This document shows, piece by piece, positions 13,768 through 48,650 of a stretch of DNA of 64,000 nucleotides (positions are counted from its first letter, which is position 1; every line of letters starts with the position of its first letter). The translations under genes and the position numbers were made by a program. Origin of the DNA: Streptomyces nigrescens (GTDB taxonomy: Bacteria; Actinomycetota; Actinomycetes; Streptomycetales; Streptomycetaceae); contig AP026073.1 in the NCBI GenBank assembly GCA_024349765.1, positions 2,356,001 to 2,420,000 on the forward strand, in the 5' to 3' direction. The notes beneath the pieces were generated by a model. That model had not been told where the DNA came from and ran no database searches. It saw only the letters and a program-made list of their open reading frames with translations.

Positions 13768-13974
13768 ATGAGTAACCCGTTCGACGACGCAGAAGGCACC
13801 TTCCACGTGCTGGTCAACGACGAGAACCAGCACAGCTTCTGGCCGGCGTTCGCCGAGGTCCCGGAGGGCTGGCGGCCGGTGCTCTCCTCGGTGACCCGGC
13901 AGGAGGCCGCCGGTTACGTGGAGGAGCACTGGACGGACCTGGACCCCGCCCGCCTCGGTTCCCGGGGAGCCTGA
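13768..13974 (+). CDS. MbtH-like protein
   Basis: A 68-residue MbtH family protein. The signature NDENQHSFWPAFAEVPEGW and the C-terminal AGYVEEHWTDLDP are both present. MbtH proteins bind adenylation domains of nonribosomal peptide synthetases and aid folding and activity, so this one should serve the A domains of the two NRPS genes in the cluster. GAGG lies upstream of the ATG. Its stop is 4 nt before the ABC transporter GTG, so the first three genes (mbtH, ABC ATPase, PPTase) form one operon under the SARP-type promoter at 13680. Confidence 0.95.
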   Translation: MSNPFDDAEGTFHVLVNDENQHSFWPAFAEVPEGWRPVLSSVTRQEAAGYVEEHWTDLDPARLGSRGA

Positions 13975-13978
13975 CGAC

Positions 13979-14941
13979 GTGCCGGACACGACGGCGGCCA
14001 TCGAGGTCGAGGGGCTGCGCAAGAGCTACAAGGACGTCGAGGTGCTGCGCGGGGTGGACCTGCGGGTGCCGGCCGGCACCGTACTGGGGCTCCTCGGTCC
14101 CAACGGCGCGGGGAAGACCACCACCGTGCGCGTGCTCAGCACTCTCGTGCGGCACGACGCCGGCACCGTCCGGGTCGCCGGGTACGACGTGGCGGGCGAG
14201 GCCCGGCAGGTGCGGCGCCGGATCGGGCTGTCCGGCCAATACGCCGCGGTGGACGAGCAGTTGACCGGCTGGGAGAACCTGACGCTGCTCGGGCGGCTGC
14301 TCGGGATGGGCCGCCGGGACGCCCGGGCCCGGGCCGGGGAACTGCTGGAACGCTTCGGCCTCGGCGCCGCGGCCGGGCGGGCGCTCGGCACCTACTCCGG
14401 CGGTATGCGCCGGCGCCTGGACCTGGCCAGCACCCTGGTGGGCCACCCGGAGGTCATCTTCCTCGACGAACCCAGCACCGGCCTCGACCCGGCCAGCCGG
14501 ATCGCCCTGTGGGAGGTGGTCAGGGAACTCGTGGCGCAGGGCGTCACCGTCCTGCTGACCACGCAGTACCTGGAGGAGGCCGACCAACTGGCCGACCACA
14601 TCTCGGTGATCGCGGACGGCGTGGTGGTGGCCGAGGGCACCGCCGACGCGCTCAAGCGCAAGGTCGGCCAGGAGCGGCTGGAGATCACCCTCGCCGACGC
14701 GGCGGGCCTGGCCGCGGCCCGCCGGACCCTGCGCACGGTGGTGACCGGCGAACTGACACAGGACGCGCAGCGCGGCGTGCTCGGGTGGCAGCTCGACGAC
14801 GGGCTCGCCGGCATCGCCGCCGCCGCGTCGGCGCTCCACGAGGCCGGGATCGAGGTGGTCGACTTCGCGCGGCGGCGCCCGTCGCTGGACGACGTGTTCC
14901 TCGGCCTGACCGGCCGGCAGGCCGTCGACCGGCAGGGGTGA
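13979..14941 (+). CDS. ABC transporter ATP-binding protein, DrrA-like
   Basis: A 320-residue ATPase subunit. Walker A is LLGPNGAGKTTTVRVL, the signature motif is TYSGGMRRRLDLA, Walker B is VIFLDEPSTGLDP, and the switch region TTQYLEEADQLAD is typical of the daunorubicin-resistance (DrrA) subfamily, as is the extra C-terminal domain. It should power export of the peptide product as self-resistance. Its natural partner, an ABC-2 permease, is encoded about 25 kb away at 39537-40361, at the other end of the cluster. The GTG start overlaps nothing; the stop overlaps the start of the PPTase gene (GTGA). Confidence 0.93.
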   Translation: MPDTTAAIEVEGLRKSYKDVEVLRGVDLRVPAGTVLGLLGPNGAGKTTTVRVLSTLVRHDAGTVRVAGYDVAGEARQVRRRIGLSGQYAAVDEQLTGWENLTLLGRLLGMGRRDARARAGELLERFGLGAAAGRALGTYSGGMRRRLDLASTLVGHPEVIFLDEPSTGLDPASRIALWEVVRELVAQGVTVLLTTQYLEEADQLADHISVIADGVVVAEGTADALKRKVGQERLEITLADAAGLAAARRTLRTVVTGELTQDAQRGVLGWQLDDGLAGIAAAASALHEAGIEVVDFARRRPSLDDVFLGLTGRQAVDRQG

Positions 14942-15654
14942 ACCGGGCCGTGGCCGAAGCCCCCGTGTGCCGGGTGTGGTGGTCCCCGGCGGTCGACGAT
15001 CCGGCGACCCGGGCCCTGCTCGACGCGGACGAGCGGGCCCGCCGCGAACGGCTGCACCAGGCGGCGGACCGGGCCCGTCTGACGACCGGACGGGCGCTGA
15101 TCAGGACGGTGATCGGCCGGATCACCGGGACGCCGCCGCGGCGGGTGCCGTTGCACCGCCGGTGCCGGCACTGCGGCGGCCCGCACGGCAAGCCGTTCGT
15201 GCCCGGTGCCGGGGTGCGCTTCTCGCTCGCCCACGCCGGTGGCCGGGTGGTACTCGCCGTCACCGAGGGCCCGGAGCCCGGGGTGGACGTCGAGCCGGTC
15301 CCCGGCCGGTCCGTGCGGCGGCTGGCCCCGCGGGTGCTGGCCGAGGACGAGTACCGCGCCTTCCAGGCGCTCCCCGACCATCGGCGGGACCGGGCCTACG
15401 CGGTGTACTGGACGCGGAAGGAGGCGCTGCTGAAGGCGGTCGGCCTGGGCATCGTCGTGCCCAAACGCGACATCACGGTGTCCGGCCCGGGCCGTTCGGC
15501 GGCGCTCGTGGAGTGGCGGGGACCGTACGCGGCCGGGCCGTTCGCCCTGTTCGACCTGGAGCCGGGACCCGGCTACGCCGGGGCGCTGGCGGTGTGCGGC
15601 CGCTCGGCGCGGGTCGAGCAGCGGTTCCTGGAGCACCCTCTCGACGACGGCTGA
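14938..15654 (+). CDS. 4'-phosphopantetheinyl transferase, Sfp type
   Basis: A 238-residue enzyme that transfers phosphopantetheine from CoA to the serine of carrier proteins. The two diagnostic motifs are GVDVEPVPGR, with the Mg-binding Asp/Glu, and WTRKEALLKAVGLG. The Sfp-type length is full. The GTG start was chosen because it overlaps the preceding stop as GTGA and sits just before the conserved region; longer frames run into the ABC gene. It would activate the four NRPS T domains and the free ACP of this cluster. Its presence inside the SARP-regulated operon suggests dedicated activation. Confidence 0.93.
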   Translation: MNRAVAEAPVCRVWWSPAVDDPATRALLDADERARRERLHQAADRARLTTGRALIRTVIGRITGTPPRRVPLHRRCRHCGGPHGKPFVPGAGVRFSLAHAGGRVVLAVTEGPEPGVDVEPVPGRSVRRLAPRVLAEDEYRAFQALPDHRRDRAYAVYWTRKEALLKAVGLGIVVPKRDITVSGPGRSAALVEWRGPYAAGPFALFDLEPGPGYAGALAVCGRSARVEQRFLEHPLDDG

Positions 15655-15744: not shown

Positions 15745-16572
15745 TCACGTGACCGATGTCTGGGGCAGGCGCGCGTCGATGGCCACGTCCTGGGTGAGGA
15801 TCGCCCGCTGCAGGCTCCGCAGCTTCCGGCCCGGTTCCACGCCGAGTTCGTCCTGCAGCCAGGAGCGGACCCGCTGGAAGGTGGCGAGGGCCTCCTGCTG
15901 CCGCCCGGAACGGTAGAGCGCGACCATCAGCAGCTCCGTCAGGCGCTCGCGTTCGGGGTGTTCCAGGGCGAGCTGCTCCAGCCCGTTCACCACGCGGTAG
16001 CCGCCGCTGAGCAGCTTGGCCTCGTAGAGGTCCTCAAGGGTGCTCAGGCGCTGACTGGCCAGCCGGCTCATCTGGTTCTGACAGCGCAGGCCGCCCAGCA
16101 CGTCGAGCAGCGCGTCCCCGCGCCACAGGGCGAGCGCCTCCTCCAGTACGGCGACGGCCTCGTCGGGCGCGTGCGGGAGCAGGGCCGCACCCTGGGCGGC
16201 GAGCGTGTCGAAGCGGTGGGTGTCGACCCGGGCCGGCGGGACGTCCAGCAGGTAGCCGTTGGCCGAGGTGCGCACCATCAGGGTGCCCGGCGTCCCGGTG
16301 ATCCGTTCCAGGGCGTCGCGCAGGCGGTGGACCCCGGCCTGCAGCGCGTTCTTCGGGTTCTTCCAGGGCCGGTCGGTGAGGAGTTCGTCGATGAGGAAGT
16401 CGATGGAGACGACCTCTCCGGCGGAGAGGGCGAGCACGGCGAGCAGGGCCCGGGCGCGGTTCGGCCCGACGCCGTAGGGCCTCCCCCGATGGGCGACCTG
16501 TAAGGGGCCCAGTAATCCGACCGACACCTCGCCCGTGTCCATGTTGTCCCCGTTCAGGATGTGCGGAGCCAT
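15745..16572 (-). CDS. SARP family pathway-specific regulator (BTAD)
   Basis: A 275-residue Streptomyces antibiotic regulatory protein. The N-terminal OmpR-type DNA-binding domain (about residues 15-105, VSVGLLGPLQVAHRG through VRTSANGYLLDV) is followed by the bacterial transcriptional activation domain (about 110-260) with TPR-like helices such as ERERLTELLMVALYRSGRQQEAL. There is no ATPase extension. Two leucine codons near the start, 20 and 24, are TTA (complement of 16513-16515 and 16501-16503), implying bldA dependence. An ATG at 16542 is an alternative start. It probably binds the three heptamer arrays at 13680, 17285 and 24713 and is the likely activator of the cluster. Confidence 0.92.
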   Translation of the reverse strand: MAPHILNGDNMDTGEVSVGLLGPLQVAHRGRPYGVGPNRARALLAVLALSAGEVVSIDFLIDELLTDRPWKNPKNALQAGVHRLRDALERITGTPGTLMVRTSANGYLLDVPPARVDTHRFDTLAAQGAALLPHAPDEAVAVLEEALALWRGDALLDVLGGLRCQNQMSRLASQRLSTLEDLYEAKLLSGGYRVVNGLEQLALEHPERERLTELLMVALYRSGRQQEALATFQRVRSWLQDELGVEPGRKLRSLQRAILTQDVAIDARLPQTSVT

Positions 16573-17389
16573 CTGTCTTCCATTCTTCTTCTCCCGGTGG
16601 TCAGCGTTCGGCGCCTACTCCCTGTACTCGGCATGCGGCGTCTTCCCCCTGTACTCACTTCGGTGTCGCCGGACGGGCGCAAACGCGTGTTCTCGCCTGG
16701 TCGTTGCGGGTGCAGAACGGCGCATGCGCGGGGCATGCGACCAAGAACCACTACTTCCCCCGGAAAAACGGACGGGAGAATTCCGTGCGAGGGGCGATGA
16801 GGTCAGGCTCGCGAACGAGCGAGCCTCCGGGAGATTCCCCACTGGACAACGGTCCGGCATTGCTGCATGAGCTGGTCCCCCCTGGGCCTGAGCTGCTGAC
16901 CATCACCGTGCGCGTACTACGTGCTGAGCGTGGGTCCATGCTTTTCGGCCACGCCAAGCTAACACACGCCGTACTGGTCAGTGATATCGCGAGAGAGGTG
17001 CTTTTGCCTTCCCCTTACGGAAAATCCCGGGGCGGCCGCCGCCGGGGGTGACGGGACGGACCGGTCCGTCCGGGGCCGGGGAAGGCGGGGGCGACGGACC
17101 TGGGCGGGGCCCGGGCGGGAGCGCCGGCGCCCCGCACGGCGGGGAGGTTGCGGAAGGATGGATTCTCCTTGGCCGCGGCCTTTCCCCGTCCCACGGAGGG
17201 AAAAGGCGCGGGGTGGCTCGAAATGGGTCCGGCACGGCAGGGGTGCCGGACGATCACCCGGAATACCACCGGCCGTTGATCGGCGTGGTCAGTGCTCAGT
17301 CAGTGCCTCGTCAATCGGCGCGATTACTTTGGGCGCCGTTCCCCGCACCCAATTCGGGGACAGTCGGGCTCGAAAGGAGTCGGCGGGCT
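16573..17389. other. 817-bp intergenic region between SARP and KASIII genes
   Basis: No convincing gene lies here. Short open frames have third-position GC much lower than neighbouring genes. Visible structures are GGCTCGC/GCGAGCC (about 16806-16825), a perfect 18-bp palindrome centred on ACCGGT (17054-17071), a 9-bp repeat CCTGTACTC at 16621 and 16648, and the SARP-type heptamers near the right end. It must hold the promoter of the SARP gene and that of the KASIII operon. The length is unusual for such a compact cluster. Confidence 0.5.
17285..17330 (+). promoter_or_regulatory. SARP-type operator and promoter of the KASIII-ACP operon
   Basis: Heptamers GTGGTCA (17285-17291), TCAGTCA (17296-17302) and CTCGTCA (17307-17313) repeat at exactly 11 bp. 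A possible -10 hexamer TACTTT lies at 17325-17330, the same 11-nt offset as in the other two sites. The KASIII GTG is 59 bp further on, preceded by AAAGGAG. Confidence 0.75.
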
Positions 17390-18319
17390 GTGACCTCAAT
17401 AGCCGAGGTATCCACGCACTGGCCGTCACCGGTTTCCCTCGCGGAGCGCCAGCACGACCTGGGACTGACGGACGCGGAACTGCGCCGCTACATCCGGGGG
17501 TTCGGACTTTCCCGGATCTGCTGGGACGAGGAGGTCACGGAGAAGGAGTTGCTCCTCTCCGCCCTGGAGAAACTGCCGTCGCTGCGGGGCGCGGAAGAGC
17601 GGGTGCGTTTCCTGATACGCGCCAGGACCTTGCGCGCGCCGTCGCCGTATCCGCACAGCGTGCTCCAGGAGATCCGGCGCGAGGCCGGCCTGCGGCACGC
17701 CCGCACCTTCGCGCTGACCGAGCACGCCTGCGCCTCCGGCCTGCTGGCGGTGGAGGTCGCGGGGATGCTGCTGGAGGAGGAGGGCGACCCCGAGGCGCTG
17801 GCGCTGATCCTGACCGGGGAGAAGGCGCTGACCCGGGAGACCCAGTTCGTGCCCGGGGTGGGCACCACCGGCGAGGCGACCGCCGCGGTACTGGTGGCGG
17901 CGTCCGGGACCAGGGACCGGGTCCGCGGCTTCGCCACCCGGACCGTGTCCACCGGCCACCCGAAGATGGTGATGACGCCGGAGGCCGCCCGGGCCTTCCG
18001 CGGGATGTACGCCGACGTCCTCACCGAGGTCATCGGCGAGGCGGTCGACGCCGCCGGGCGGACCATGGACGAGATCGCCCTGGTGCTGCCGCACAACGTG
18101 AACCGGGTCGCGTGGACGAAGCTCGCGGACCGGCTGGGCACCCGCACCGAACGGGTGCTCCTGGACAACGTCCCGCGCACCGGGCACTGCTTCGGGGCCG
18201 ACCCGTTCGTCAACTACGTCACGGCCTGCGAGCTGGGCAGACTCCGCCCCGGTGACCACTACCTGATGGTGGCCGTCGGGCTCGGGGCGTGCTTCGCCGC
18301 GATGGTCGTGGAGCACTGA
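17390..18319 (+). CDS. 3-oxoacyl-ACP synthase III (KASIII) family protein
   Basis: A 309-residue thiolase-fold enzyme. The nucleophile region is TEHACASGLLAVEVAG with C114; the histidine is H235 in LVLPHNVNRVAW. The usual third residue, Asn in a GNTSAAS loop, is replaced in GHCFGADPF, so the family position is shifted away from true FabH. Such variants act as acyltransferases or condense unusual acyl units. The GTG at 17390 follows AAAGGAG and gives a start just before conserved sequence; the frame is open further upstream but crosses the SARP boxes. First gene of an apparent seven-gene operon. It may extend or transfer the ACP-bound unit made by the next genes. Confidence 0.8.
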   Translation: MTSIAEVSTHWPSPVSLAERQHDLGLTDAELRRYIRGFGLSRICWDEEVTEKELLLSALEKLPSLRGAEERVRFLIRARTLRAPSPYPHSVLQEIRREAGLRHARTFALTEHACASGLLAVEVAGMLLEEEGDPEALALILTGEKALTRETQFVPGVGTTGEATAAVLVAASGTRDRVRGFATRTVSTGHPKMVMTPEAARAFRGMYADVLTEVIGEAVDAAGRTMDEIALVLPHNVNRVAWTKLADRLGTRTERVLLDNVPRTGHCFGADPFVNYVTACELGRLRPGDHYLMVAVGLGACFAAMVVEH

Positions 18320-18352: not shown

Positions 18353-19723
18353 GTGGAGGAGAACTTCAGCCGGCGGCTGAAGACCGCGGTGGCCGGTGAC
18401 CCGGGCGCGTCCCTGGTGTTCCTGGGCAACTTCGAGGTCGAGGAGGAGTGGGCCCGCGGCGAGACCGGACTGCCCCGGCTCTCGTCGGCGGGGAACAGCG
18501 CCGTGGTCAACCGCATGGAGGAGTTCGCGCTGCTGCTGGGCGGCGCCGACGACCACGTCGTCCTCAAGACCCGGCCCGACGAGGACTACCTCGACCACCT
18601 GCGCCGACTGGGGCTGGCCCTGCCCACCGTGCACGTGGTGGCCGGCCAGCGGCCCGACCACATGGTCACCCGGGACGCCCTGGCGGACGACGCGCTGATC
18701 GCCGCCCTCGGCGAACTGGCGGACCGGGGCGCGCTGCTGGCCCCGCACGGCGTCTCCGCCCTGGAGGAGGAACTCGCCGCCCGGTCCCGGCTCCCGCTGG
18801 CCGCCCCGCCGGCGCCGCTGTGCAAGGCGGTCAACAGCAAGGTCTACAGCCGGCGCGCCGCGGACGCGGCCGGGCTGCGGCAGCCGCGCGGCTGGGCCTG
18901 CGAGACCCTCGACGCACTCGACGCGGCGATGGCGCACGCCGCCGAACTGTGCGAGCAGGGCGTCACCTTGATGGTCAAGGAGGCGTTCGGCGTCTCCGGC
19001 AAGGGCATCGCGGTCGTCGACAGCCGGCGTCGGCTCGACCGCCTGCACACCATGATCACCCGGGCCGCCCGCGCCGCCGGCTCCGACCGCGCCGCCTTCG
19101 TGATCGAGGAGAGGGTGGCCAAGGACCGGGACCTCAACTACCAGATCACCGTGGGCCGGGACGGCGCCGTGCGGCTGGACTTCGTCAAGGAGGCCCTCAC
19201 CGAGGGCGGGGTGCACAAGGGCCACCGCTTCCCACCCGACCTGACGACACGTCAGCTCGATGACATCCGGCATGCCGCCCGGCTGCTCGGCAAGCAGCTG
19301 GCGTCCGACGGCTTCTTCGGCGTGGCCGGCATCGACGCGATCGTGGACACCGACGGCGGCGTCTTCCCGGTGATCGAGATCAACGCCCGCAACAACATGT
19401 CGACCTACCAGGTCCGGCTCCAGGAACGGGTGCTCGCCCCGGGACAGTCGGCACTCGCCCGCCACTACCCCCTCCGGCTGCGCCGGGAGCTGCCGTTCGC
19501 CGCCGTGCGCCGGCTGCTGGACGGCCTGCTGCTGCGGTCGCCGGGCGAGGAGGGCCTGGTCGTCAACAACTTCGCCACCGTCAACGCCGGCGCCGGCTCC
19601 GGGCCCTACCAGGGGCGGCTGTACGGACTGCTGGTCGGCGCCCCCGAACGGCTCCCCGCGCTGGACGAGGCCGTCTCGGAGCAACTGGCCACCCTTACCG
19701 AGGAGCCCGCCGATGCCCGCTGA
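18353..19723 (+). CDS. ATP-grasp amino acid:ACP ligase (BtrJ-like)
   Basis: A 456-residue ATP-grasp enzyme. The nucleotide-binding core spans about residues 160-370: LMVKEAFGVSGKGIAVV (phosphate-binding loop), AAFVIEERVAKDRDLNYQ, and the metal-binding end VFPVIEINARNNMSTYQVRL. The overall order matches BtrJ of butirosin biosynthesis, which ligates L-glutamate to the ACP BtrI through an acyl phosphate. The next genes encode a BtrK-like decarboxylase and an ACP, which strengthens that reading. The GTG at 18353 with GGAGAA upstream is preferred over 18329. Its end overlaps the decarboxylase start by 11 nt. Which amino acid is activated is not visible; glutamate is the default guess. Confidence 0.78.
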   Translation: MEENFSRRLKTAVAGDPGASLVFLGNFEVEEEWARGETGLPRLSSAGNSAVVNRMEEFALLLGGADDHVVLKTRPDEDYLDHLRRLGLALPTVHVVAGQRPDHMVTRDALADDALIAALGELADRGALLAPHGVSALEEELAARSRLPLAAPPAPLCKAVNSKVYSRRAADAAGLRQPRGWACETLDALDAAMAHAAELCEQGVTLMVKEAFGVSGKGIAVVDSRRRLDRLHTMITRAARAAGSDRAAFVIEERVAKDRDLNYQITVGRDGAVRLDFVKEALTEGGVHKGHRFPPDLTTRQLDDIRHAARLLGKQLASDGFFGVAGIDAIVDTDGGVFPVIEINARNNMSTYQVRLQERVLAPGQSALARHYPLRLRRELPFAAVRRLLDGLLLRSPGEEGLVVNNFATVNAGAGSGPYQGRLYGLLVGAPERLPALDEAVSEQLATLTEEPADAR

Positions 19724-21023
19724 GTTCACCGTGCAGAACCTGGGGATCACCTCCCTCGCCGAGCGGTTCGGCACCCCGCTGTACCTCTACGACGGCGACC
19801 GCCTGACCGGCCGCATGGACGCCCTCCGCGAGCTGCTCCACCCCCGGCTGGAGATCTTCTACTCGCTCAAGGCCAACCCGAACGTCTCCGTCTGCGCCCT
19901 GCTGCACGCGCACGGCGCCCGGGCCGAGGTCTCCTCGCTGACCGAGCTGCTCACCGCGCGGGCGGCCGGGGTGGCCGCCCGCGACATCGTCTTCCTCGGC
20001 CCCGGGAAGAGCCGCGAGGAACTCGGCGCCTGCCTCCGCCAGGGCGTGTACGCGGTCATCTGCGAGTCCTTCCAGGAACTGGCGGCGATCGAGGAGCTGG
20101 CCGGCGAACTCGGCCTGACCGCTCCGGTCGCGCTGCGCGTCAACCCGAGCTTCACCGTGAAGGGTTCGGGGCTCACCATGGGCGGCAAACCCCGCCAGTT
20201 CGGCATCGACGAGGAACAGCTGCTGGGGTCCGAACCGCTGGGCAAGGGACTGGCACACGTGCGGCTGATGGGCGTGCAGGTGTACATGGGCACCCGCATC
20301 CTCAGCGAGGAGGCCGTCGTGCTCAACACCGAGCGCATCCTCGACCTCGCCGAACGCGTCGCGGCGCACCACGGCTTCCCCCTGGAGACGGTCGACGTCG
20401 GCGGCGGCCTCGGCGTCGCCTACTTCGACGGCGAGCGCGACCTGGACCTGGCGCGCCTGGCCGCCGGCGTCAACCCGGTCCTGGACGCCTTCGCCGAGGC
20501 CCACCCCGACACCCGGCTGATCATGGAACTCGGGCGCTACCTGGTGGCCGAGAGCGGGACGTACGTGGTCCGGGTCGGCTACACCAAGACCTCGGCCGGG
20601 GAGAACTTCGCGGTCGCCGACGGCGGCACCAACCACCACATGGCCGCCGTGGGCATCGGGTCGTTCGTCAAGCGGAACTTCCCCATCGAACTGCTCAACC
20701 GGCCCGGCACCGGCGCCACCGAACCGTGGAACATCACCGGACCACTGTGCACGCCCAACGACACCCTCGGCAAGAAGGTGCCGCTGCCGCCGCTGCGGAC
20801 CGGTGACCTCCTCGGCGTGCGGCGGTCCGGCGCGTACGGCCCGAGCGCCTCACCGGTGTTCTTCCTCTCCCACGGCCACCCCGCCGAGGTGCTGGTCCAC
20901 CGCGGGCGGGCGCACCTCGTCCGGGACGCCGACACCCCCAGGGACCTGCTGGCCCGCCAGCACCTGTACGACCCCGCCTCGTCCGCCGTGCGCTCCCCGC
21001 TCGACTCGCTCCCCACCGCCTAG
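19713..21023 (+). CDS. Group IV PLP decarboxylase (BtrK-like, acting on aminoacyl-ACP)
   Basis: A 436-residue enzyme of the diaminopimelate/ornithine decarboxylase fold: an alanine-racemase-like PLP barrel plus a C-terminal beta domain. The PLP lysine is in EIFYSLKANPN (about residue 54), the phosphate loop is TVDVGGGLGVAYFDGE, and MELGRYLV plus the cysteine in GPLCTPNDTLG complete the active site. Segments such as SGLTMGGKPRQFGID and GGTNHHMAAVGIGSFVKRNFP resemble BtrK, which decarboxylates glutamyl-S-ACP to 4-aminobutyryl-S-ACP. Coupling to an ATP-grasp ligase upstream and an ACP downstream supports an ACP-bound substrate. Confidence 0.8.
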   Translation: MPAEFTVQNLGITSLAERFGTPLYLYDGDRLTGRMDALRELLHPRLEIFYSLKANPNVSVCALLHAHGARAEVSSLTELLTARAAGVAARDIVFLGPGKSREELGACLRQGVYAVICESFQELAAIEELAGELGLTAPVALRVNPSFTVKGSGLTMGGKPRQFGIDEEQLLGSEPLGKGLAHVRLMGVQVYMGTRILSEEAVVLNTERILDLAERVAAHHGFPLETVDVGGGLGVAYFDGERDLDLARLAAGVNPVLDAFAEAHPDTRLIMELGRYLVAESGTYVVRVGYTKTSAGENFAVADGGTNHHMAAVGIGSFVKRNFPIELLNRPGTGATEPWNITGPLCTPNDTLGKKVPLPPLRTGDLLGVRRSGAYGPSASPVFFLSHGHPAEVLVHRGRAHLVRDADTPRDLLARQHLYDPASSAVRSPLDSLPTA

Positions 21024-21063
21024 GCCCGGCACCCGGGCCGGCCCCCTACCGAAGGACACGGAC

Positions 21064-21351
21064 ATGACCGAAGCGACCATCCAGCAGCCCACGACCGAGC
21101 AGGACCGGGTCACCGCCGCCGTCACCGAAGCCCTCGGCGACGTCCTCCAGCGCGAGCTGACCGGCCTGGAGCCCGGCACCAGGCTCTTCGACGAACTCGG
21201 CCTCGACTCCACCGGCGTGCTCGACCTGCTGCTCGCCCTGGAGGAGCTGCTGGACTGCGAGTTCGACACGGAGAACCTGGAGATGAGCCACTTCGCCACC
21301 GTCGGCTCGCTGGCCGACCACCTCACGGGCGAGCTGAGAGCGCAGCGGTGA
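21064..21351 (+). CDS. Free-standing acyl carrier protein (BtrI-like)
   Basis: A 95-residue carrier protein with the phosphopantetheine serine in DELGLDSTGVLDLLLALEE (about residue 50). It has the acidic helix II typical of ACPs. It should carry the amino acid loaded by the ATP-grasp ligase, its decarboxylated form, and possibly later oxidised or condensed forms. Its final position could be docking to the N-terminal condensation domain of NRPS1. AAGGACACGG lies before the ATG, and its stop overlaps the next GTG. Confidence 0.92.
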   Translation: MTEATIQQPTTEQDRVTAAVTEALGDVLQRELTGLEPGTRLFDELGLDSTGVLDLLLALEELLDCEFDTENLEMSHFATVGSLADHLTGELRAQR

Positions 21352-22187
21352 CGCTCGCCCTGACGGTGTCCGCGATGGCACACCGCCGCTTCCCGGCCGG
21401 GGCCACCCGCCCCGGCGCCGCCGACGACGACCGGTACCACGCCGAGGTCGCCGCGGCGGCCGGTGTGCCCCTGCGGGACGGCATCCGGCCGACCGTCACC
21501 GGGTCCACCTTCGAGGAGATGGCGGTCGCCCTGCTGGACCCGCTCGGTGCCCAGGACCACCCCGTCGACCTGCTGTTGCTGGCCTACGCGACGCCCGACC
21601 TCACGCCCCTGACGCTCACCGGGCCCACGCTGGCCGCCCGCCTGCCCGGCCGGCCCCGGCTCTTCGGGATCACCGACACCGGCGTCTCGGCGCCCTTCAC
21701 CATGCTGGCGCTGGCCCGCTCCAGCGTGCTCCGCCACCGCCTCCGGCGGGTGCTGGCGTTCGCCTTCGACCAGTCGGACCTGCCGTACGACGTTCCGCTG
21801 CCACCGGACCGGCGGGTGGCGGGCGACGCCGCGGTGGCGCTGGTCGTCGAGCCGGCGCCGGACGGCGCCCCGGACGCGCTCCGGGTGCGCCAGCGGTCGG
21901 GCGTCCCCGCGAAGGAGGTGCCGCGCACCCTCGACGCCCTCGCGGCGGAACTCGCGGCCGACGGCGCCTCCACGATCCTGGTCGGCGCCGGGGTGGGGGA
22001 GCGGTGGCAGCCGCGGATCCCGCACTCCGTGCTCCGGCACACCCCGCGGGGATGGCCGTGCACCGCGTTGTTCGGCGCGCTGGCCCGCCTGCGCCCGGCC
22101 CCGGACGACGCCCCGGTGCTGCTCGCCGAGTACGACCGGTCCCTCGGTGACCTGTCGGTCTGCCGCGTCGGCCCGGTGGCCGCATGA
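21348..22187 (+). CDS. KASIII-fold protein lacking the catalytic cysteine
   Basis: A 279-residue protein with the thiolase-type N-terminal half (DLLLLAYATPDLTPLTLTGPTLA, then the strand-loop LFGITDTGVSAPFTMLALAR where FabH-like enzymes have their Cys). No cysteine occurs in that nucleophile loop. The segment RRVLAFAFDQSDLPYDVPLPP and the following GDAAVALVVE strand are as in KASIII homologues. It is about 30 residues shorter than FabH. It may be a non-catalytic partner of the KASIII at 17390, as PqsB is for PqsC, or an acyltransferase with altered chemistry. It overlaps both neighbours by 4 nt, so coupled translation is likely. Confidence 0.6.
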   Translation: MTLALTVSAMAHRRFPAGATRPGAADDDRYHAEVAAAAGVPLRDGIRPTVTGSTFEEMAVALLDPLGAQDHPVDLLLLAYATPDLTPLTLTGPTLAARLPGRPRLFGITDTGVSAPFTMLALARSSVLRHRLRRVLAFAFDQSDLPYDVPLPPDRRVAGDAAVALVVEPAPDGAPDALRVRQRSGVPAKEVPRTLDALAAELAADGASTILVGAGVGERWQPRIPHSVLRHTPRGWPCTALFGALARLRPAPDDAPVLLAEYDRSLGDLSVCRVGPVAA

Positions 22188-22810
22188 GCGCCGCGACCGG
22201 CGTGAGCGCCCCGCCCGGCCACCGGCGGCTGTACGCCGCGGCCCGGGACGAGGGACCCGCGGCGGCCCTGCGCGCCCTGCTGGCCCGGCACGGCCCGCAC
22301 GCCCTGGACGGCGGCGCCGCCGGCCACGCCGTCCTGCCGGAGCCCGCGGGCCCGGTGGACGGCCGGGTGCTGCGCCACTACCCGCCGCCCGCCGGACCCG
22401 TGATCCTGGTACGGCGGGTACCGGACGCCGCCCCGCCCGCCCCGCCCGATCCGCCGGCCCTGCTCTGGATCCGGCTCGGACTCACCGCCGGACTCCGCAC
22501 CGCCACTCTGGACCGGCTGGGCGAACGCGCCAGCGGGGACGGCACGATCCTCATGCACCAACTGGTCAAGGCCCAGGCCGCGGAGGCGTACGCCGGGGAG
22601 CTGGAGCTGACGGCACACGCCGCCTCGCTCGCCCCGGCCGGCGCGACGACCGCGCGGCTGCGGCACCTGCACTCCCAGATCACCCGCACCGACCGGGCGT
22701 GGCTGCGGCTGCTGGGTGCCCACGGATTCCTGCGCACGGGCCCCGGCGGCGTCGCCGAGGTCTCGGAACTGCTGGCCGATGTCTACCTTCCGGCGGAGGA
22801 GGAACGGTGA
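22184..22810 (+). CDS. Acyl-CoA dehydrogenase C-terminal-domain-like protein
   Basis: A 208-residue protein. After a proline/alanine-rich N-terminal third without clear homology, the rest reads like the C-terminal four-helix bundle of acyl-CoA dehydrogenases: LWIRLGLTAGLRTATLDRLGERA, then LVKAQAAEAYAGELELTAHAA and VAEVSELLADVYLP. The N-terminal helical and middle beta domains that bind flavin are missing or unrecognisable. Together with the complete dehydrogenase encoded next (4-nt overlap) it could form a heteromeric enzyme in which this subunit completes the active site. The alternative is a degenerate duplicate kept for structure. Confidence 0.55.
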   Translation: MSAATGVSAPPGHRRLYAAARDEGPAAALRALLARHGPHALDGGAAGHAVLPEPAGPVDGRVLRHYPPPAGPVILVRRVPDAAPPAPPDPPALLWIRLGLTAGLRTATLDRLGERASGDGTILMHQLVKAQAAEAYAGELELTAHAASLAPAGATTARLRHLHSQITRTDRAWLRLLGAHGFLRTGPGGVAEVSELLADVYLPAEEER

Positions 22811-23955
22811 ACGGTGACGCACGGCTGGCCGCGCTGCGCGACCGGGCCCGCGAGTGGGGCGACCAGTTCCGCGCCGCCGCACCGGAGCTCGACCGGGACC
22901 CGGACGCCGTCCACCGCTACCTTGACCTGCCCGGGGTCCGCCACCTCAGCACCTACGGCACACCGCGCGAGTACGGCGGCCGGCCGCTGCGGGTGGGCCC
23001 GTGCGCCTTCGAGGGCACCGGCGCGGTGGAACACGTCGTGGTGCTGGAGGAACTGGCGCGCGGCGACGCGGGGCTGACCCTCGCCGCGCCCGGGCCGTCG
23101 ATGTCGGGCGTGCTGGTGGACAAGCTGGCCGACCCGGCGCAGCGCGCGGAGTACTACACCCGGATCGTGGGCGAACCCACCTGGACCTGCTTCGCGTTGA
23201 CCGAGCCCGGCCACGGTTCCGACGCCTCGGCGATGGAGACCATGCTGCGCCCCGGCGCCGACGGCCGGCTCGTCCTGAGCGGCCGCAAACGCTATGTGGG
23301 CAACGCCGCCCGTGCCCAGCTCGCCGTGGTCTTCGCCCGCACCGGCAGCGGGCCGCTCGGCGTGACCGCCGTCCTGGTGGACACCGGGTGCGCCGGCTAC
23401 CGGGCCGAGCCGCTGGACACGCTCGGACTGCGCGGCGCGCAACTGGGCGCGGTCACCCTCGACGACCTCCCCGTCGAGCCCGAGCGGGTGCTCGGCCGGC
23501 ACCTGTCGCCGGTCCGCCGCGGCATGTGGGCCTGCGTCCAGGTGTTCAACCGGCTGCGCCCCGGGGTGGCGGCGCTGGCCCTCGGCATCGCCGGCGCGGC
23601 CCACGCCTACGTCGTCGAGCAGCGGCCGGCCGCCCGGGGTGCCGCCCGGGACCGCATCGAGGAGCTGGGCCACCGGATCGAGGCCACCCGGTCCCTGGTG
23701 CTCCGGGCCGCCGCGGAGGTGGACGCCACCGGCGACGGGCACCTCGCCTCGGCCGCCAAGGCGCGGGCCTGCGCCCTGGCAGAGGAGGTGACGCTGGCCG
23801 GCTGCGAGCTGCTGGCGCCGGCCGCCCGGGCGAGCCATCCGCTGCTGGACAAACTGGCGCGGGACGCACGGGGCGTCGAGTTCATGGAAGGCACCCGCAA
23901 CATCCAGCACCTCAACCTCTTCCCGGGGCTGCGCGCCGGTCGGGCCACGGGGTGA
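22807..23955 (+). CDS. Acyl-CoA dehydrogenase family protein
   Basis: A 382-residue flavoenzyme with the standard domain order. The N-terminal helical part is followed by the flavin-contact segment TWTCFALTEPGHGSDASAMET, the middle beta domain (LSGRKRYVGNAARAQLAVVF) and the C-terminal bundle ending VEFMEGTRNIQHLNLFPGL. The family introduces an alpha,beta double bond in acyl thioesters; some members accept carrier-protein substrates in natural-product pathways. In this operon the likely substrate is an ACP-bound aminoacyl unit. The GTG overlaps the preceding stop. It is the last gene of the operon and ends 9 nt before the converging response regulator gene. Confidence 0.88.
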   Translation: MNGDARLAALRDRAREWGDQFRAAAPELDRDPDAVHRYLDLPGVRHLSTYGTPREYGGRPLRVGPCAFEGTGAVEHVVVLEELARGDAGLTLAAPGPSMSGVLVDKLADPAQRAEYYTRIVGEPTWTCFALTEPGHGSDASAMETMLRPGADGRLVLSGRKRYVGNAARAQLAVVFARTGSGPLGVTAVLVDTGCAGYRAEPLDTLGLRGAQLGAVTLDDLPVEPERVLGRHLSPVRRGMWACVQVFNRLRPGVAALALGIAGAAHAYVVEQRPAARGAARDRIEELGHRIEATRSLVLRAAAEVDATGDGHLASAAKARACALAEEVTLAGCELLAPAARASHPLLDKLARDARGVEFMEGTRNIQHLNLFPGLRAGRATG

Positions 23956-23964: not shown

Positions 23965-24612
23965 TCAGGAATGGTTGAGATAGGTCAGGACGGCCAGCAC
24001 CCGGCGGTTGTCGTCCTTGGACGGCGGCAGATCCAGTTTCTGCATGATGTTGCCGATGTGTTTGGTGACCGCCTTCTCCGTGATGACGAGCAGGGCGGCG
24101 ATCGCGGCATTGGACCGGCCCTCGGCCATGCCGTGCAGGACGTCGCGTTCCCGGTCGGTCAGGCGCGTGACCTTCTCGTCCCGCCCGCTGCCGGACATCA
24201 TCGCGGTGACCACGTCCGGGTCCATCACCGTGCCCCCGCCGGCCACCTGGCGCAGCGCCGAGACGAACTGCGTGGCGTCGAAGACCCGGTCCTTGAGCAG
24301 ATAGCCCACGCCGCCCTCGCCGTCCGCGAGCAACTCCCGCGCGTAGAGCTGGTCGACGTACTGCGACAGCAGCAGTGACGGCTGGCCGATGTGGCGGCGG
24401 CGGGCCTCCAGCACCGCGCGCAGCCCCTCGTCGGTGTGGGTCGGCGGCATCCGGATGTCCGCGAGGACCAGGTCGGGGCGTTCCACGTCCAGCGCCCGGA
24501 CCAGCTCCGGGCCGCTGCCGACGACCGAGACGACCTCGAAACCGTGCGGTTCCAGCAGCCGGATCAGACCCTCGCGCAACAAGAACTGGTCCTCGGCGAG
24601 CACGATGCGCAT
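23965..24612 (-). CDS. NarL/LuxR-family response regulator
   Basis: A 215-residue two-component regulator. The receiver domain (1-120) has the acidic pocket in LAEDQ, phospho-acceptor D52 in LADIRMPP, and the conserved Lys in GYLLKDRV. The LuxR-type HTH (about 150-205, LTDRERDVLHGMAEGRSNAAIA) is at the C-terminus. No kinase is adjacent; the HisKA_3 kinase at 10876, at the left side of the cluster, is the obvious partner candidate. It is transcribed against the surrounding operons, with its start 129 bp from the SbnA/NRPS promoter region, so divergent regulation there is possible. Confidence 0.92.
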   Translation of the reverse strand: MRIVLAEDQFLLREGLIRLLEPHGFEVVSVVGSGPELVRALDVERPDLVLADIRMPPTHTDEGLRAVLEARRRHIGQPSLLLSQYVDQLYARELLADGEGGVGYLLKDRVFDATQFVSALRQVAGGGTVMDPDVVTAMMSGSGRDEKVTRLTDRERDVLHGMAEGRSNAAIAALLVITEKAVTKHIGNIMQKLDLPPSKDDNRRVLAVLTYLNHS

Positions 24613-24712
24613 GGCTGCCTTCCCCCCATTCGGCCACCACCCGGACCACGGCGTCCGGCCGGGCCGCCCAGAACCTAGCAACGGCCTTGCAAGAGCGGCA
24701 AGTTGGCAAATT

Positions 24713-24758
24713 CCGGTCAGCGGGCGGTCAACCGGTAGTCAGTGCGATTTGGCAGGAT
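24713..24758 (+). promoter_or_regulatory. SARP-type operator and promoter of the SbnA-NRPS operon
   Basis: Heptamers CCGGTCA (24713-24719), GCGGTCA (24724-24730) and GTAGTCA (24735-24741) repeat at exactly 11 bp. A candidate -10 hexamer CAGGAT sits at 24753-24758, at the same offset as in the two other sites. The array ends directly before an in-frame GTG (24742). If this promoter is correct, that GTG lies upstream of the transcription start and cannot be the initiation codon of the following gene. Confidence 0.75.
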
Positions 24759-24807
24759 CGCGCACGCATCTGAAGAAGCCCATTCCCATCAAGGCGGCAG
24801 GTGTCCC

Positions 24808-25788
24808 ATTCACATCATCACCGCTCCCCACGAATTCAATGCCGACGACCTCTTCGTCGATCTGGAACCCCTCGTCGGTGAACCGTTGATGCTGAAATGC
24901 GAGGGATTCAATTTCGCCGGTTCCATCAAGCTCAAGGCCGCGCGCGCGATGGTGGACGCCGCCGAACGCCGGGGGCGCCTACGTCCCGGCTCCACCCTGG
25001 TGGAGAGCTCCTCGGGGAACCTCGGCGTGGCACTGAGCCTGCTGGCCGCCGCCCGGGGCTACCGCTTCCTGTGCGTGACCGACTCCCGCTGCACCCTCGG
25101 CGCCCGTCAGCTCATGCAGGCGCTGGGCAGCGAGGTGCACGTCATCACCACTCCGGACCCGGTGGACGGGCTGCTCGGCGCGCGCCTCGCGCACGTCCGC
25201 GAACTGTGCGCCGGCAACGAGGACTTCCTCTGGCTCAACCAGTACGCCAACCCGGACAACGGGCAGGCCCACTACGACAGCACCGGCCCGGAGATCCTCA
25301 AGGCCTTCCCCGACCTGTCGGTCCTCTTCGTCGGGGCCGGGACCACCGGCACCCTGATGGGCTGCGCCCGCTACCTGCGCGACCACAAGCCGTCGGTCCG
25401 GGTGGTCGCGGTGGACGCGGAGGGGTCGGTCACCTTCGGCGGCCCCGCCCGGACCCGCATGATCCCGGGGCTGGGCACCGGCGTCCGACCGCCGCTGCTG
25501 GACGAGTCGCTCGTCGACGACGTGGTGCTGGTCGCCGAGCCCGACACCATCCGCAGCTGCCGCCGGCTGGCCCGCCGCGGCTTCCTCTTCGGCGGGTCCA
25601 CCGGCACCGTCGTCAGCGGCGCCCTCGCGTGGCTCGCGCGGCATCCGCTGCCGCCCGGCGGCCGGGCCGTCGCCATCGCCCCCGACCTCGGCGAGCGCTA
25701 CCTGGACACCGTGTACCAGGAGCAGTGGGTCCTCGACCTCTACGGCCCGCGGGCCCTGGACGACGACGTGCCCGCCCGGGTCGGCTGA
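24808..25788 (+). CDS. PLP-dependent cysteine synthase/SbnA-like enzyme
   Basis: A fold-type II PLP enzyme of about 326 residues. The PLP lysine lies in CEGFNFAGSIKLKAARAM, the phosphate/substrate loop is VESSSGNLGVAL, and FVGAGTTGTLMGCARYL is the glycine-rich PLP-phosphate site. It resembles enzymes that make 2,3-diaminopropionate precursors (SbnA, VioB types) by beta-replacement on an activated serine. The first A domain pocket downstream also suggests a small diamino acid. No SbnB-like oxidase is in the window. The conserved protein begins at IHIITAPHEFN. The only standard start (GTG, 24742) abuts the SARP boxes, so an ATT start at 24808 is proposed. Confidence 0.75.
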   Translation: MHIITAPHEFNADDLFVDLEPLVGEPLMLKCEGFNFAGSIKLKAARAMVDAAERRGRLRPGSTLVESSSGNLGVALSLLAAARGYRFLCVTDSRCTLGARQLMQALGSEVHVITTPDPVDGLLGARLAHVRELCAGNEDFLWLNQYANPDNGQAHYDSTGPEILKAFPDLSVLFVGAGTTGTLMGCARYLRDHKPSVRVVAVDAEGSVTFGGPARTRMIPGLGTGVRPPLLDESLVDDVVLVAEPDTIRSCRRLARRGFLFGGSTGTVVSGALAWLARHPLPPGGRAVAIAPDLGERYLDTVYQEQWVLDLYGPRALDDDVPARVG

Positions 25789-25888: not shown

Positions 25889-28800
25889 ATGACCCCACCC
25901 GCCGACACCGCCCTGCCGTTGACGGGCGCCCAGTCCGGCATCTGGTTCGACGAGCGGCTCTCGCAGGGGCGACTGGCCTACAACATGGCCGACTACCTCG
26001 ACATCTCCGGGCCGCTCGACGCGGCCCTGCTGCGCCGGGCGCTGGAGACGGTGCTGGACGAGGCCGAGTGCACCAGGGCGCGGTTCTCCGAGACGGACGG
26101 CGTCCCCGTCCAGCACGTCCGGCCGCTCGGGGAACTGCCGCTGCGGCACCTGGACCTCAGCGGCGCCGCCGATCCGGTCGCCGAGGCCCTGCGGCTCTTC
26201 GACGAGGATCTGCACCGGCCCTTCCGGCTCACCGGGAGCCTGCTGTTCCGGTTGACGCTGGTGCGGGTCGCCGCCGACCGCCACCTGCTCCACCTGGCCA
26301 TGCACCACCTGCTCGCCGACGGATACAGCCGGCTCGCGGTCTACCGCAGGCTCAGCGAGGTCTACGGCGGCCCGGCCGCCGACGGGAGCGGACTGCCGGG
26401 GACGCCGCTGCCCCCGCTGCGGGTGCTGCTGGACGCCGAGACGGCGTACCTGGCCTCGCCCGCCGTCGAGCGCGACCGGCTCTTCTGGGAGCGCCACCTG
26501 CCGCGGGACGCCGAACCGACCGGCCTGGCCACCGGGGACCCCGCACCCGGCACCGCGTTCCTGCGGGTCACCCGCACCGTCGACGCCGCCGCCGCGGCCA
26601 CCCTGCGCGCCGCCGCGGCGGACGCCGGGGTGACCTGGCCGACCTTCGCCATCGCCGCCACGGCCGCCTACGTCGCCAAGGCCACCGGCAACCCCGAGGT
26701 GCTGCTGACCCTCCCGGTGACCGCGCGGCAGTCCGCGCTCGCCCGCACCGTGCCCGGAATGGTCGCCAACTACCTCCCGTTCCCGGCCCGGCTCCCCGCC
26801 TCCACGACGGTGGCCGAGCTGCTCACCGTGACCTCCCGGACCCTCGCCCGGTCGCTGCGGCACCAGCGCTACCCGGCCGAGCGGCTGCGCCGGGCGATGG
26901 GCCTGACGGCGGGCGACCGGCGGCCGTTCGGGCCGTTCGTCAACGTCCTGCCGCAGAACCCGGAGATCCGCCTCGGCCCCTGCCGGGCGACGCTGCACAA
27001 CCTCTCCACCGGCATCGTCGACGACCTGATGATCACCGTCCTGGACGCCGCCGGCGGCGGCCTGGAACTCCACATGAACGGCAACCCCGCGCTCTACCGG
27101 CCCGAGGAGATCCGCGGCCACCTGAGCCGGTTCGAGGCGTTCCTGCGCCGGCTGGCGTCGGCCCCGGCCCACACCCCGCTCGGCCGGCTGGAGACGGTCA
27201 CCGAGGACGAACGCGCCGAGCTGCTCGCCGCCGGCACCGGACCCACCGGCCCGGTGCGCGGCGGCGTGGTGGAGCGGATACGGGAGCGCGCCGAGCGGGA
27301 CCCGGCGGCCACCGCCCTGGCGGAGGGCGAACTGGCGGTCTCCTACGGGCAGTTGGTGACCTGGGCCGACGCGATGGCGCGGCGGCTGACCGAGGCCGGT
27401 GTGGGACCCGGCTCACTGGTGGGCGTGCTGGCCGAACCCGGCGCGGTCTTCCTCGGCACGGTGCTGGCCGTCCTGCAGGCCGGCGGCGCCTGGGTCCCTC
27501 TGGACGTGCGGGCCCCGGCGGCCCGGGCCGCCGGGCTGCTCACCGACGCCCGCGTCGGCCACCTGGTCGTCGGCCCCGGATGCGCCGCGCCCGCCGACGA
27601 GGTGACCGCGCTGACCGGCCACCCGGTCCGGCGGCTGGCCGCGGACCTGGACTTCACCGCGGCGGCCGCGCCCATCGCGCTGTCCGCCCCGGCGGGCGCG
27701 GAGCGGGACCCCGCCTACGTGATCTTCACCTCGGGATCGACCGGCCGGCCGAAGGGCGCGATCGTCGAACGCCGCGGGATGCTCAACCACCTCCTCGCCA
27801 AGATCGAGGACCTCGGCCTCGGGACCGGCGACACGGTGGTGTGGAACGCGCCGGTGACCTTCGACGTGTCGGTGTGGCAGATGCTGGGCCCGCTGCTGGC
27901 CGGCGGCGTCGTGCAGATCGTCCCGCACGACGTCGCGGCCGACCCCGAGGCGCTGTTCGGCACCGTCGCGGACCACGCGGTGACGGTGCTGGAGGTCGTC
28001 CCGTCGCTGCTGCGCGCCGCGCTGGACCTCTGGCAGGTCTCGGACACCGGCCCCGACACCGGCTCCCTCCGGTGGCTGATGGTCACCGGTGAGGCGCTCC
28101 CGGCGGACCTGTGCGCACGCTGGTGGCGGATCGCCGGGGTGCCGATGGTCAACGCCTATGGACCCACCGAGTGTTCGGACGACGTGACCCACGCCGTGCT
28201 GCGGCCGGGGCAGGAGCTGGGCGCCCGGGTCCCCATCGGCCGCCCGGTGCGCAACACCGTCCTGCACGTGCTCGGCGGCGATCTGCGCCCGGTCCCGGTG
28301 GGTCAGGTGGGCGAACTCTTCGTGGGCGGCGCCGGGGTGGGCCGCGGGTACCTCTCCGACCCGGTCAAGACCGCCGCCTCGTTCGTCGCCGACCCCTTCG
28401 CCGGGGGCGGGGCACGGATGTACCGCACCGGCGACCGCGTGGTGCGCCGCCCGGACGGCCAGCTGGAGTTCGTCGAGCGCCTGGACCACCAGGTCAAGGT
28501 GCGCGGACACCGGATCGAACTGGGCGAGGTGGAGGCCGCGCTGCGCGAGGTCGAGGGGGTGGCCGACGCGGCGGTGCGGGCGGTCGCCGGCCCGTCCGGC
28601 GCCACCCGTCTGATCGCCTACGTCGTCGCGCCGGACCTGCCCACGGACGCGGTGCGCGACGCGGTCGCCGCGGCGCTGCCGGAGTACATGGTGCCGTCGG
28701 GCTGGGTCGCGCTGGAACGGATGCCGCTGACCGCGCACGGCAAGGTGGACCGCCGGGCGCTGCCCGACCCCGCCCGCGTCCCCGCCCCGGCCACCCGGCG

Positions 28801-31800: not shown

Positions 31801-32323
31801 CGAGGCGCTCGCCACGGCCTTCCACCGGCTGCTCCTGGGGCTGGTGGAGCACCCCGGCCGGCCCGTCGCCGGACCGGGGGCCCCGGTCCCCGACGAGGAC
31901 GTGCCGCGGCGCGGCGGTGTCCCGGCACCCGCCGGCGGGACGGACCGGGCCGACACCGGACCGGCCCCGGGCGCGACGGCCGCCGAGGTGGCGCTGCTGT
32001 GCGGACTGTTCGCGGAGGTCCTGGGGCTCGAACAGGTCGGCCCGCAGGACAACTTCTTCCTGCTGGGCGGGGATTCGATCAGCGCGATCCAGGTCGTCGG
32101 GCGGGCCCGCGCGAAGGGGCTGCCGCTGACCGCCGGGCAGGTCTTCCGGCTGCGCACCCCCGCCGCCCTCGCCGCCGCACGGCAACCCGCCGGGGAACCC
32201 GCCCCCGGGGCCGGCACCACCGCGGACCCGGCGGACCCGGCGGACCTCCTCGACCTGGACGGCGACGAACTCGCCGCACTCGAAGGCGAGTTGGCGGAAC
32301 TCGACACCGAGCTGGAGTCATGA
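25889..32323 (+). CDS. Nonribosomal peptide synthetase, C-A-T-E-C-T
   Basis: A 2144-residue NRPS. Domains in order: C1 (about 5-440; HHLLADG, EntF-like N-terminus [13 protein letters not shown]), A1 (460-960), T1 (980-1045, GGDSITAIQ), epimerase E (1070-1540; [24 protein letters not shown]), C2 (1564-2000; HHILVDGWS), T2 (2030-2100, GGDSISAIQ), then an acidic tail probably docking to NRPS2. The A1 pocket residues read DVWEMTADDK; E278 and D331 resemble ornithine/diaminobutyrate pockets and W239 would shorten it, so diaminopropionate is suggested. The residue is epimerised to D. Module 2 has no A domain, so T2 must be charged in trans. C1 probably takes the ACP-borne starter. ATG 25889 follows GGAG. 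Confidence 0.93.
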
Positions 32324-44798: not shown

Positions 44799-44884
44799 TC
44801 CGGCGCGGTGCTCCCGTTGTGTCGTTCCGCTTCCTGTCGTCCAGACAGCCCCGGAGTCCGTGCCCGAAGAGGCAGGAGGACCCG

Positions 44885-46012: not shown

Positions 46013-46013
46013 A

Positions 46014-47307: not shown

Positions 47308-47311
<4 letters not shown>
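46655..47311 (+). CDS. ribM: PnuC-family riboflavin transporter (RibM)
   Basis: A 218-residue membrane protein with about seven hydrophobic segments. It belongs to the PnuC family of vitamin uptake carriers ([20 protein letters not shown], then WGWRQWQRG and the C-terminal [10 protein letters not shown]). In actinobacteria the copy within riboflavin operons under an FMN riboswitch imports riboflavin rather than nicotinamide riboside, and that is the most likely role here. It overlaps ribE by 4 nt and ribBA by 4 nt. Confidence 0.88.
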
Positions 47312-48591
<1,280 letters not shown>

Positions 48592-48650
48592 TTCCCCCCA
48601 CACCTGTTACGTCACCACCAACCGGCACCACCACCCGTACGAGGAGAACC

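Follow-up and report, generated by a model that had tools for sequence, protein, structure and literature searches.

What do the genes for an ATP-grasp ligase, a pyridoxal phosphate (PLP)-dependent decarboxylase and a free acyl carrier protein (ACP) make when they stand beside a nonribosomal peptide synthetase (NRPS)? The question is raised by a 64,000-nt stretch of Streptomyces nigrescens DNA (hereafter the window), which is part of one of the two contigs of a 9.33-Mb genome and carries a biosynthetic cluster spanning approximately 13.7-40.4 kb. It is highly probable that this cluster encodes a lipopeptide of the enamidonin/autucedine type, and that the genes in question make its acyl starter, bound to a carrier protein. 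Most likely, seven genes of a single operon turn aspartate into a fatty-acylated, double-bonded β-alanine that starts a small antibiotic lipopeptide. In their order of transcription, these genes are:

17390-18319, forward strand: β-ketoacyl-ACP synthase III (KASIII) with Cys-His-His (ACP_syn_III_C; start set by homologue)
18353-19723, forward strand: ATP-grasp ligase (PF18604)
19713-21023, forward strand: BtrK-family PLP decarboxylase (PF02784, PF00278, BtrK match)
21064-21351, forward strand: free-standing ACP (PF00550)
21348-22187, forward strand: protein of predicted KASIII fold without the nucleophile (structure model, Foldseek)
22184-22810, forward strand: degenerate protein of predicted acyl-CoA dehydrogenase (ACAD) fold, 208 aa (structure model, Foldseek)
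22807-23955, forward strand: ACAD (Pfam PF02770/PF00441)

Of 295 genomes sampled from the genus, 22, that of S. nigrescens included, encode a relative of the ligase, with one match (in genome G211) being only 32% identical. At a loose cut-off (E <= 1e-3), 241 stretches from a public genome collection encode a relative, and a plasmid collection yielded one match, on a Streptomyces decoyicus plasmid. The best 80 of the 241 stretches, 19 neighbourhoods from the genus search (one of them, L039, a 7-kb contig) and the plasmid make 100 loci, and removal of five duplicates leaves 95. This set leaves out the S. nigrescens genome itself, L027 (from the same genome as L049) and the G211 match. The complete order KASIII, ligase, decarboxylase, ACP, KASIII-like protein, 208-aa protein and ACAD is present in 61 of the 95 loci, and the first four genes are adjacent in 74. 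The seven genes keep their order more than chance would have it. The gene caller used for these loci and for the window is crude. Conservation counts given below come from best-domain pieces for the KASIII and the ACP, and from whole open frames for the decarboxylase, the ACAD, the 208-aa protein and the KASIII-like protein.

Pfam matches and coordinates bear out the order and common strand of the ligase, decarboxylase and ACP genes that an earlier, sequence-only reading of this DNA had described. The overlapping starts that it mentioned apply to the ligase and decarboxylase genes, which share 11 nt, but not to the decarboxylase and ACP genes, which are separated by 40 nt. The ACP gene overlaps the one after it by 4 nt. 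The ligase matches the PreAtp-grasp family PF18604 (67 bits) and, more weakly, other ATP-grasp families, which give it the ATP-grasp fold expected of a BtrJ-type enzyme. Its matches in the Protein Data Bank (PDB) are weak and include PGM1. The ACP carries a phosphopantetheine-binding domain (PF00550), and its D-S motif is found in 91 of 91 rows.

The decarboxylase is more informative with respect to its relatives. It matches PF02784 (142 bits) and PF00278 (61 bits), and all 85 rows retain the Lys of its SLKANPN motif. In the list of 20 solved relatives from the PDB, the top matches are two BtrK sequences (321 bits over residues 8-416), whereas the others reach at most 166 bits. By this measure the enzyme appears closer to BtrK than to diaminopimelate or ornithine decarboxylases. 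It is extremely improbable that it acts on a free amino acid in the manner of the latter enzymes, with the ligase and ACP genes as incidental neighbours. Although its Pfam families are shared with diaminopimelate decarboxylase, the BtrK score is about twice that of any diaminopimelate decarboxylase listed, and the adjacency of KASIII, ligase, decarboxylase and ACP genes in 74 of 95 loci also argues against a chance neighbourhood. The S. nigrescens genome encodes five further PF02784 members, which likewise count against this alternative.

The operon had been said to go on with KASIII-type and ACAD-type genes. Both fold types do occur downstream of the ACP gene, but the KASIII that bears a Cys is encoded upstream of the ligase (17390-18319), and the 208-aa gene intervenes before the ACAD. 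In the upstream KASIII, a G-H of the window protein aligns to a G-N of solved KASIII enzymes, such that the Asn of FabH is replaced by His. All 84 rows, the window included, have the Cys and both His residues. A His in place of the FabH Asn fits an acyl transfer without decarboxylation, not a decarboxylative condensation, and the enzyme is proposed to pass the acyl group to an amine.

Membership of the KASIII family, along with the conserved Cys and His, would also suit an enzyme that forms a carbon-carbon bond, joining β-alanyl- or 4-aminobutyryl-ACP to malonyl-ACP and yielding an amino-polyketide starter for the ACAD to desaturate. This is very unlikely. The residue corresponding to the FabH Asn is His in every one of the 84 rows, and no ketoreductase or dehydratase is found among the 20 cluster-region proteins scanned. 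Moreover, enamidonin-type products carry no such extension (PMC11204786).

The preferred assignment, an amide-forming KASIII, brings in the gene immediately after the ACP. Its product (21348-22187) has no Pfam family match above cut-off, but a structure model (pLDDT 92.4) predicts that it has a KASIII fold, with the best Foldseek matches (E 1.8e-10, TMq 0.58) being KASIII-type entries. No invariant or near-invariant Cys exists across 40 aligned sequences. Within the eight columns presumed to correspond to the nucleophile stretch, as matched by eye, Cys occurs in at most 11 of 80 rows of any column, and the Cys-richest column outside this stretch has it in 52 of 80. This protein is encoded alongside the KASIII in 79 of the 83 loci that have a KASIII gene. 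In the four exceptions (L077, L115, L116 and L120), the contig stops inside the decarboxylase gene or immediately beyond it. We propose that the Cys-less protein is a non-catalytic partner of the KASIII.

A second pair of this kind may be formed by the last two proteins of the operon. The 208-aa protein (22184-22810) has no Pfam or NCBIfam family match. Its model (pLDDT 91.3) gives a best Foldseek match with E 1.1e-3 and TMq 0.41, and the 50 matches listed of 294 nearly all have the ACAD fold, including the two-gene steroid ACAD 6wy8. Judged by eye, its sequence stops before the position of the ACAD catalytic Glu. For the ACAD itself (22807-23955), the catalytic Glu, part of an EGT motif, is present in 66 of 67 rows. 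Members of the 208-aa family are found in 65 of the 66 loci with an ACAD gene on the same strand, and in six more where the ACAD gene is on the opposite strand (L047, L054, L064 and L079) or was missed by the script (L121 and L123). The 208-aa protein is proposed to be a partner of the ACAD, and the ACAD is proposed to be the desaturase that forms the enamide, dehydro-β-alanine.

Which amino acid is loaded on the ACP is best approached from the peptide that the starter begins. The genes for diaminopropionate supply and for the NRPS lie downstream:

24742-25788, forward strand: SbnA-type 2,3-diaminopropionate synthase (TIGR03945; start uncertain, homology from 24814)
25889-32323, forward strand: NRPS 1, C-A(Dap)-T-E-C-T, where Dap is the predicted 2,3-diaminopropionate (Pfam, motifs, alignment)
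32320-39540, forward strand: NRPS 2, predicted C-A(Gly)-T-C-A(Phe-like)-T-TE (Pfam, motifs, alignment)

As previously noted from the sequence, the NRPS begins with a condensation (C) domain, which is confirmed by Pfam and by motifs. The complete order of condensation, adenylation (A), thiolation (T), epimerization (E) and thioesterase (TE) domains is C-A-T-E-C-T in the first protein and C-A-T-C-A-T-TE in the second (Pfam, with the E domain assigned by motif). The SbnA homologue scores 377.7 bits against TIGR03945, above the curated equivalog cut-off of 349.95, so diaminopropionate can be supplied. The A-domain codes in the window are DVWEMTADD, DILQLGFVY and DAWVAAAVC, and they are identical in the cluster of genome G194. 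We take these to resemble the codes for 2,4-diaminobutyrate or Dap (Dab/Dap), Gly and Phe. Module 2 is without an A domain in the window and in G194. In Streptomyces rimosus WC-3904 (G048; L029, L059 and L136), the homologous cluster carries the code DIWEVTADD in both modules 1 and 2, followed by DITQFGLIW and DAAVIACVC, and its module 2 therefore looks like a Dap module. With the code of module 1 recurring in module 2 of S. rimosus, the most likely peptide from the window cluster is predicted to be D-Dap, Dap, Gly and a Phe-like residue, with the missing A domain implying that the second Dap is loaded in trans. In two other cassette-bearing clusters, L135 and L047, the modules that follow the first Dap are different.

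A peptide of this kind is known. Enamidonins, autucedines and olenamidonins share the ring order D-Dpr/L-Dpr/Gly/L-Phe (diaminopropionate being written Dpr) and carry their acyl chain on dehydro-β-alanine (PMC11204786). In Streptomyces olivaceus, the aut and ole clusters produce the peptide that is predicted for the window (PMC11204786). The window cluster has A-domain codes that fit this core, a four-module NRPS with epimerization in module 1 and a TE, an SbnA, and the KASIII, decarboxylase, ACP and ACAD needed for an acyl-dehydro-β-alanine starter. Its module 2 is without an A domain, and no SbnB gene was found beside that for SbnA. This likeness is to the published description (PMC11204786). 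Autucedines A-C are also reported in PMC12837651, and kutzneridine A from Kutzneria is a lipopeptide that likewise gives an acetonide artefact (PMC12843350). Solanimycin contains dehydro-α-alanine (PMC10204066) and has no bearing on this cluster.

The ligase-decarboxylase-ACP logic is that of BtrI, BtrJ and BtrK in butirosin biosynthesis. The window shares the decarboxylase family with butirosin but adds genes for N-acylation and desaturation and an NRPS, and aspartate is its likelier substrate. Starters derived from β-amino acids reportedly have a precedent in macrolactams, namely vicenistatin. The sequence-only reading held that a carrier-bound, decarboxylated and further modified amino acid begins the peptide, and in outline this is very probably right. 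However, it took the amino acid to be glutamate, as in butirosin. Loading of glutamate through its γ-carboxyl group would give 4-aminobutyryl-ACP, which would be N-acylated or otherwise modified before starting the peptide. Among solved relatives, the decarboxylase is indeed closest to BtrK, a glutamyl-ACP enzyme, yet this alternative is unlikely because the NRPS predicts an enamidonin core, in which the acyl chain sits on the three-carbon dehydro-β-alanine, and because the BtrK-like protein BolN has been assigned to isoaspartyl-ACP (PMC7756342). Conversion of aspartate to β-alanyl-ACP appears to fit better, since the predicted core matches lipopeptides acylated on dehydro-β-alanine. Formation of a pyrroline or pyrrole from γ-aminobutyryl-ACP was considered in thought only and set aside.

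BolN belongs to the bolagladin pathway of Burkholderia gladioli, which offers a published precedent for aspartate-based starter formation. In the proposed pathway, Asp is loaded by BolO on the carrier BolC and decarboxylated by BolN, a KASIII homologue carries out N-acylation, and the ACAD BolQ then introduces the double bond (PMC7756342). Deletion of bolN abolishes bolagladins and is not rescued by feeding β-alanine, and deletion of bolQ yields dihydro-bolagladins with β-alanine in place of dehydro-β-alanine (PMC7756342). The window and Bol clusters have in common a BtrK-like decarboxylase, a free ACP, KASIII homologues, an ACAD and an NRPS starter that would be N-acyl-dehydro-β-alanyl (PMC7756342). 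They differ in their peptides, and also in that both Bol KASIII homologues are without the Cys, having Ser and Thr (PMC7756342), whereas the window-type KASIII keeps it in 84 of 84 rows. For the aut and ole clusters, it has been suggested that the KASIII OleH/AutS may couple an acyl-CoA to ACP-bound dehydro-β-alanine (PMC11204786), which would put acylation after desaturation, whereas the bolagladin proposal has the two steps the other way round. The window does not decide between these orders.

The statement that no cluster with this combination had been described thus gives way to bolagladin logic that is backed by gene deletions (PMC7756342) and to aut and ole clusters that make the predicted peptide (PMC11204786). 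The likely chemistry and peptide are already known, and the window is a new example, not a new system. A probable product type can now be named for a cluster that could not be placed before. In the open-access literature searched, which does not include the autucedine cluster paper, no description was found of the degenerate partners, of an ATP-grasp ligase used in this way or of the loci whose flanks show no NRPS. Nor was an open-access paper found that joins enamide, ATP-grasp and decarboxylase in one biosynthetic gene cluster, or one that treats BtrK and BtrJ along with a decarboxylase and an acyl carrier protein.

We infer the following substrates, transfers, partnerships and product. The ATP-grasp ligase would activate the β-carboxyl group of L-aspartate and load it on the ACP as isoaspartyl-ACP, from which the BtrK-like decarboxylase would take off the α-carboxyl group to leave β-alanyl-ACP. 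The KASIII, with its Cys-less partner, would accept a fatty acyl group on its Cys and pass it to the β-amine. The ACAD, with the 208-aa protein, would desaturate N-acyl-β-alanyl-ACP to N-acyl-dehydro-β-alanyl-ACP. NRPS 1 would then use its first C domain to couple this starter to diaminopropionate made by SbnA, and the NRPS would add D-Dap, Dap (in trans), Gly and a Phe-like residue before the TE cyclizes the product. Two questions follow: whether a Cys-His-His KASIII can form an amide with an amine held on an ACP, and whether the two degenerate partners are obligatory subunits.

Several observations weigh against this pathway. The full seven-gene order is not shown in 34 of the 95 loci. Nine of these, from Amycolatopsis, are missing the decarboxylase and KASIII genes from their flanks, but the two are present elsewhere in 9 of 9 genomes, side by side by their coordinates; several other incomplete loci have contig ends, gene losses or rearrangements. 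The 208-aa protein resembles ACADs only modestly, with no Foldseek match at E <= 0.001. Position 4 of the peptide is less clear than the others, given DAWVAAAVC in the window versus DAAVIACVC in S. rimosus and reference codes that we presume. The true start codon of SbnA is uncertain, and its customary partner SbnB is not encoded by any gene found in the window. The S. rimosus locus L029 and its relative L087, both of the Dap class, show neither an ACAD gene nor the 208-aa gene in their flanks, although they retain the KASIII, ligase, decarboxylase, ACP and Cys-less partner. Desaturation is thus not general in the Dap class, and products of these two loci may keep plain β-alanine. Lastly, Bol uses the ANL-type BolO (likened to VinN, for adenylation) where the window has an ATP-grasp ligase (PMC7756342).

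The SbnB function might come from elsewhere in the genome. The sole SbnB above the TIGR03944 cut-off is encoded on the second contig (1.07 Mb), beside another SbnA, and this pair (L131:8094-10066) might serve the window cluster. The closest relatives, L048-L051, also have no SbnB match in their loci. A more distant gene of the ornithine-cyclodeaminase family (Pfam) lies between the SARP (Streptomyces antibiotic regulatory protein) and KASIII genes in one of them (L050:7521-8564). A gene of equal length occupies the same place in L051, and none like it is seen at that place in the window.

The contexts in which the cassette occurs raise a broader possibility. Classes were assigned from flanks of approximately 10 kb. 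Across the 95 loci, these flanks encode an SbnA in 28, a fatty acyl-AMP ligase in 22, a type II β-ketoacyl synthase (KAS) in 16 and a MATE exporter in 15. Rarer features are an AurF-type oxygenase (three loci) and a type I polyketide synthase (PKS; two loci), and 17 loci have none of the classing features. In the acyl-AMP-ligase class, 17 of 22 loci carry an ACAD pair. In the cluster at G158:C1:736000-782900 (L138, L139 and L028), genes for a fatty acyl-AMP ligase and two ACADs share one strand with the seven-gene set, which is followed by those for a MATE exporter, a stand-alone condensation protein and a phosphopantetheinyl transferase (PPTase), and these 47 kb contain no NRPS A-domain match at the thresholds used. 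Because flanks elsewhere cover approximately 10 kb, absence of an NRPS is established only for this stretch and at these thresholds.

On a tree built from 96 ligase rows, one change accounts for the SbnA class, including the window, and two for the acyl-AMP-ligase class, versus approximately 17-18 in shuffles. SbnA-class ligases, that of the window among them, lie on one side of a single branch with respect to the other labelled classes. This quickly made tree has long branches, and 42 of its 96 rows are unlabelled, some inside these groups. So few class changes indicate that the lineage of the cassette largely follows the type of cluster. It is conceivable, though held with slightly more doubt than belief, that the seven genes are a general actinobacterial acyl-enamide module, comprising two degenerate partners and an amide-forming Cys-His-His KASIII, that serves several types of assembly in addition to Dap lipopeptides. 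If so, it predicts NRPS-free N-acyl-dehydro-β-alanyl amides, a class undescribed in the literature searched. The link between a rare residue, dehydro-β-alanine, and a recognizable actinobacterial gene set should make enamide natural products easier to mine.

Individual loci of the rarer classes show other neighbours. In L043, L044 and L046, the cassette lies beside an AurF-type oxygenase (Pfam on L043), with small ACP-like and methyltransferase-like genes as judged from protein starts, and L043 also encodes a weak tRNA-synthetase-like protein. In L040 and L041 it lies beside a type I PKS protein with ketosynthase, ketoreductase and dehydratase domains (KS, KR and DH; Pfam on L040). Besides the type II KAS, L055 and L075 have a ketoreductase-like gene and a second KAS-like gene, again judged from protein starts, and loci of this kind perhaps make their own acyl chain. 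No type II KAS or ketoreductase-like genes are seen in the window cluster.

The remaining genes and control sites of the window cluster are as follows:

13683-13708, forward strand: SARP-type triple direct repeat, one mismatch, upstream of the MbtH/ABC/PPTase genes
13768-13974, forward strand: MbtH-like protein (Pfam PF03621, 87 bits)
13979-14941, forward strand: ABC transporter ATPase, DrrA-like (Pfam PF00005)
14938-15654, forward strand: 4'-phosphopantetheinyl transferase (Pfam PF01648)
15745-16572, reverse strand: SARP-family regulator, BTAD and Trans_reg_C (Pfam PF03704, 133.5 bits)
17288-17313, forward strand: exact SARP-type triple direct repeat preceding the KASIII gene and starter operon
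23965-24612, reverse strand: LuxR/NarL-type response regulator (family search)
24705-24730: SARP-type triple direct repeat, one mismatch, overlapping the 24716-24741 array
24716-24741, forward strand: exact SARP-type triple direct repeat preceding the SbnA-NRPS operon
39537-40361, forward strand: ABC-2 type exporter permease (family search)

The pattern GTCA-N7-GTCA-N7-GTCA, allowing at most one mismatch, has four matches where 0.18 are expected, and none of 100 shuffles reaches four. Exact repeats at 17288-17313 and 24716-24741 uphold the earlier view that the starter and NRPS operons have SARP-type sites in common.

Beyond the cluster, an MMPL-type gene in the window and its homologue give partial matches only. 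Riboflavin- and histidine-like genes and CBS-domain-type membrane proteins lie near the window cluster (44819-53527) and also near the G158 cluster (L139:11843-19899). With neighbours judged from protein starts, it looks as if two versions of the cluster arrived at one chromosomal spot.

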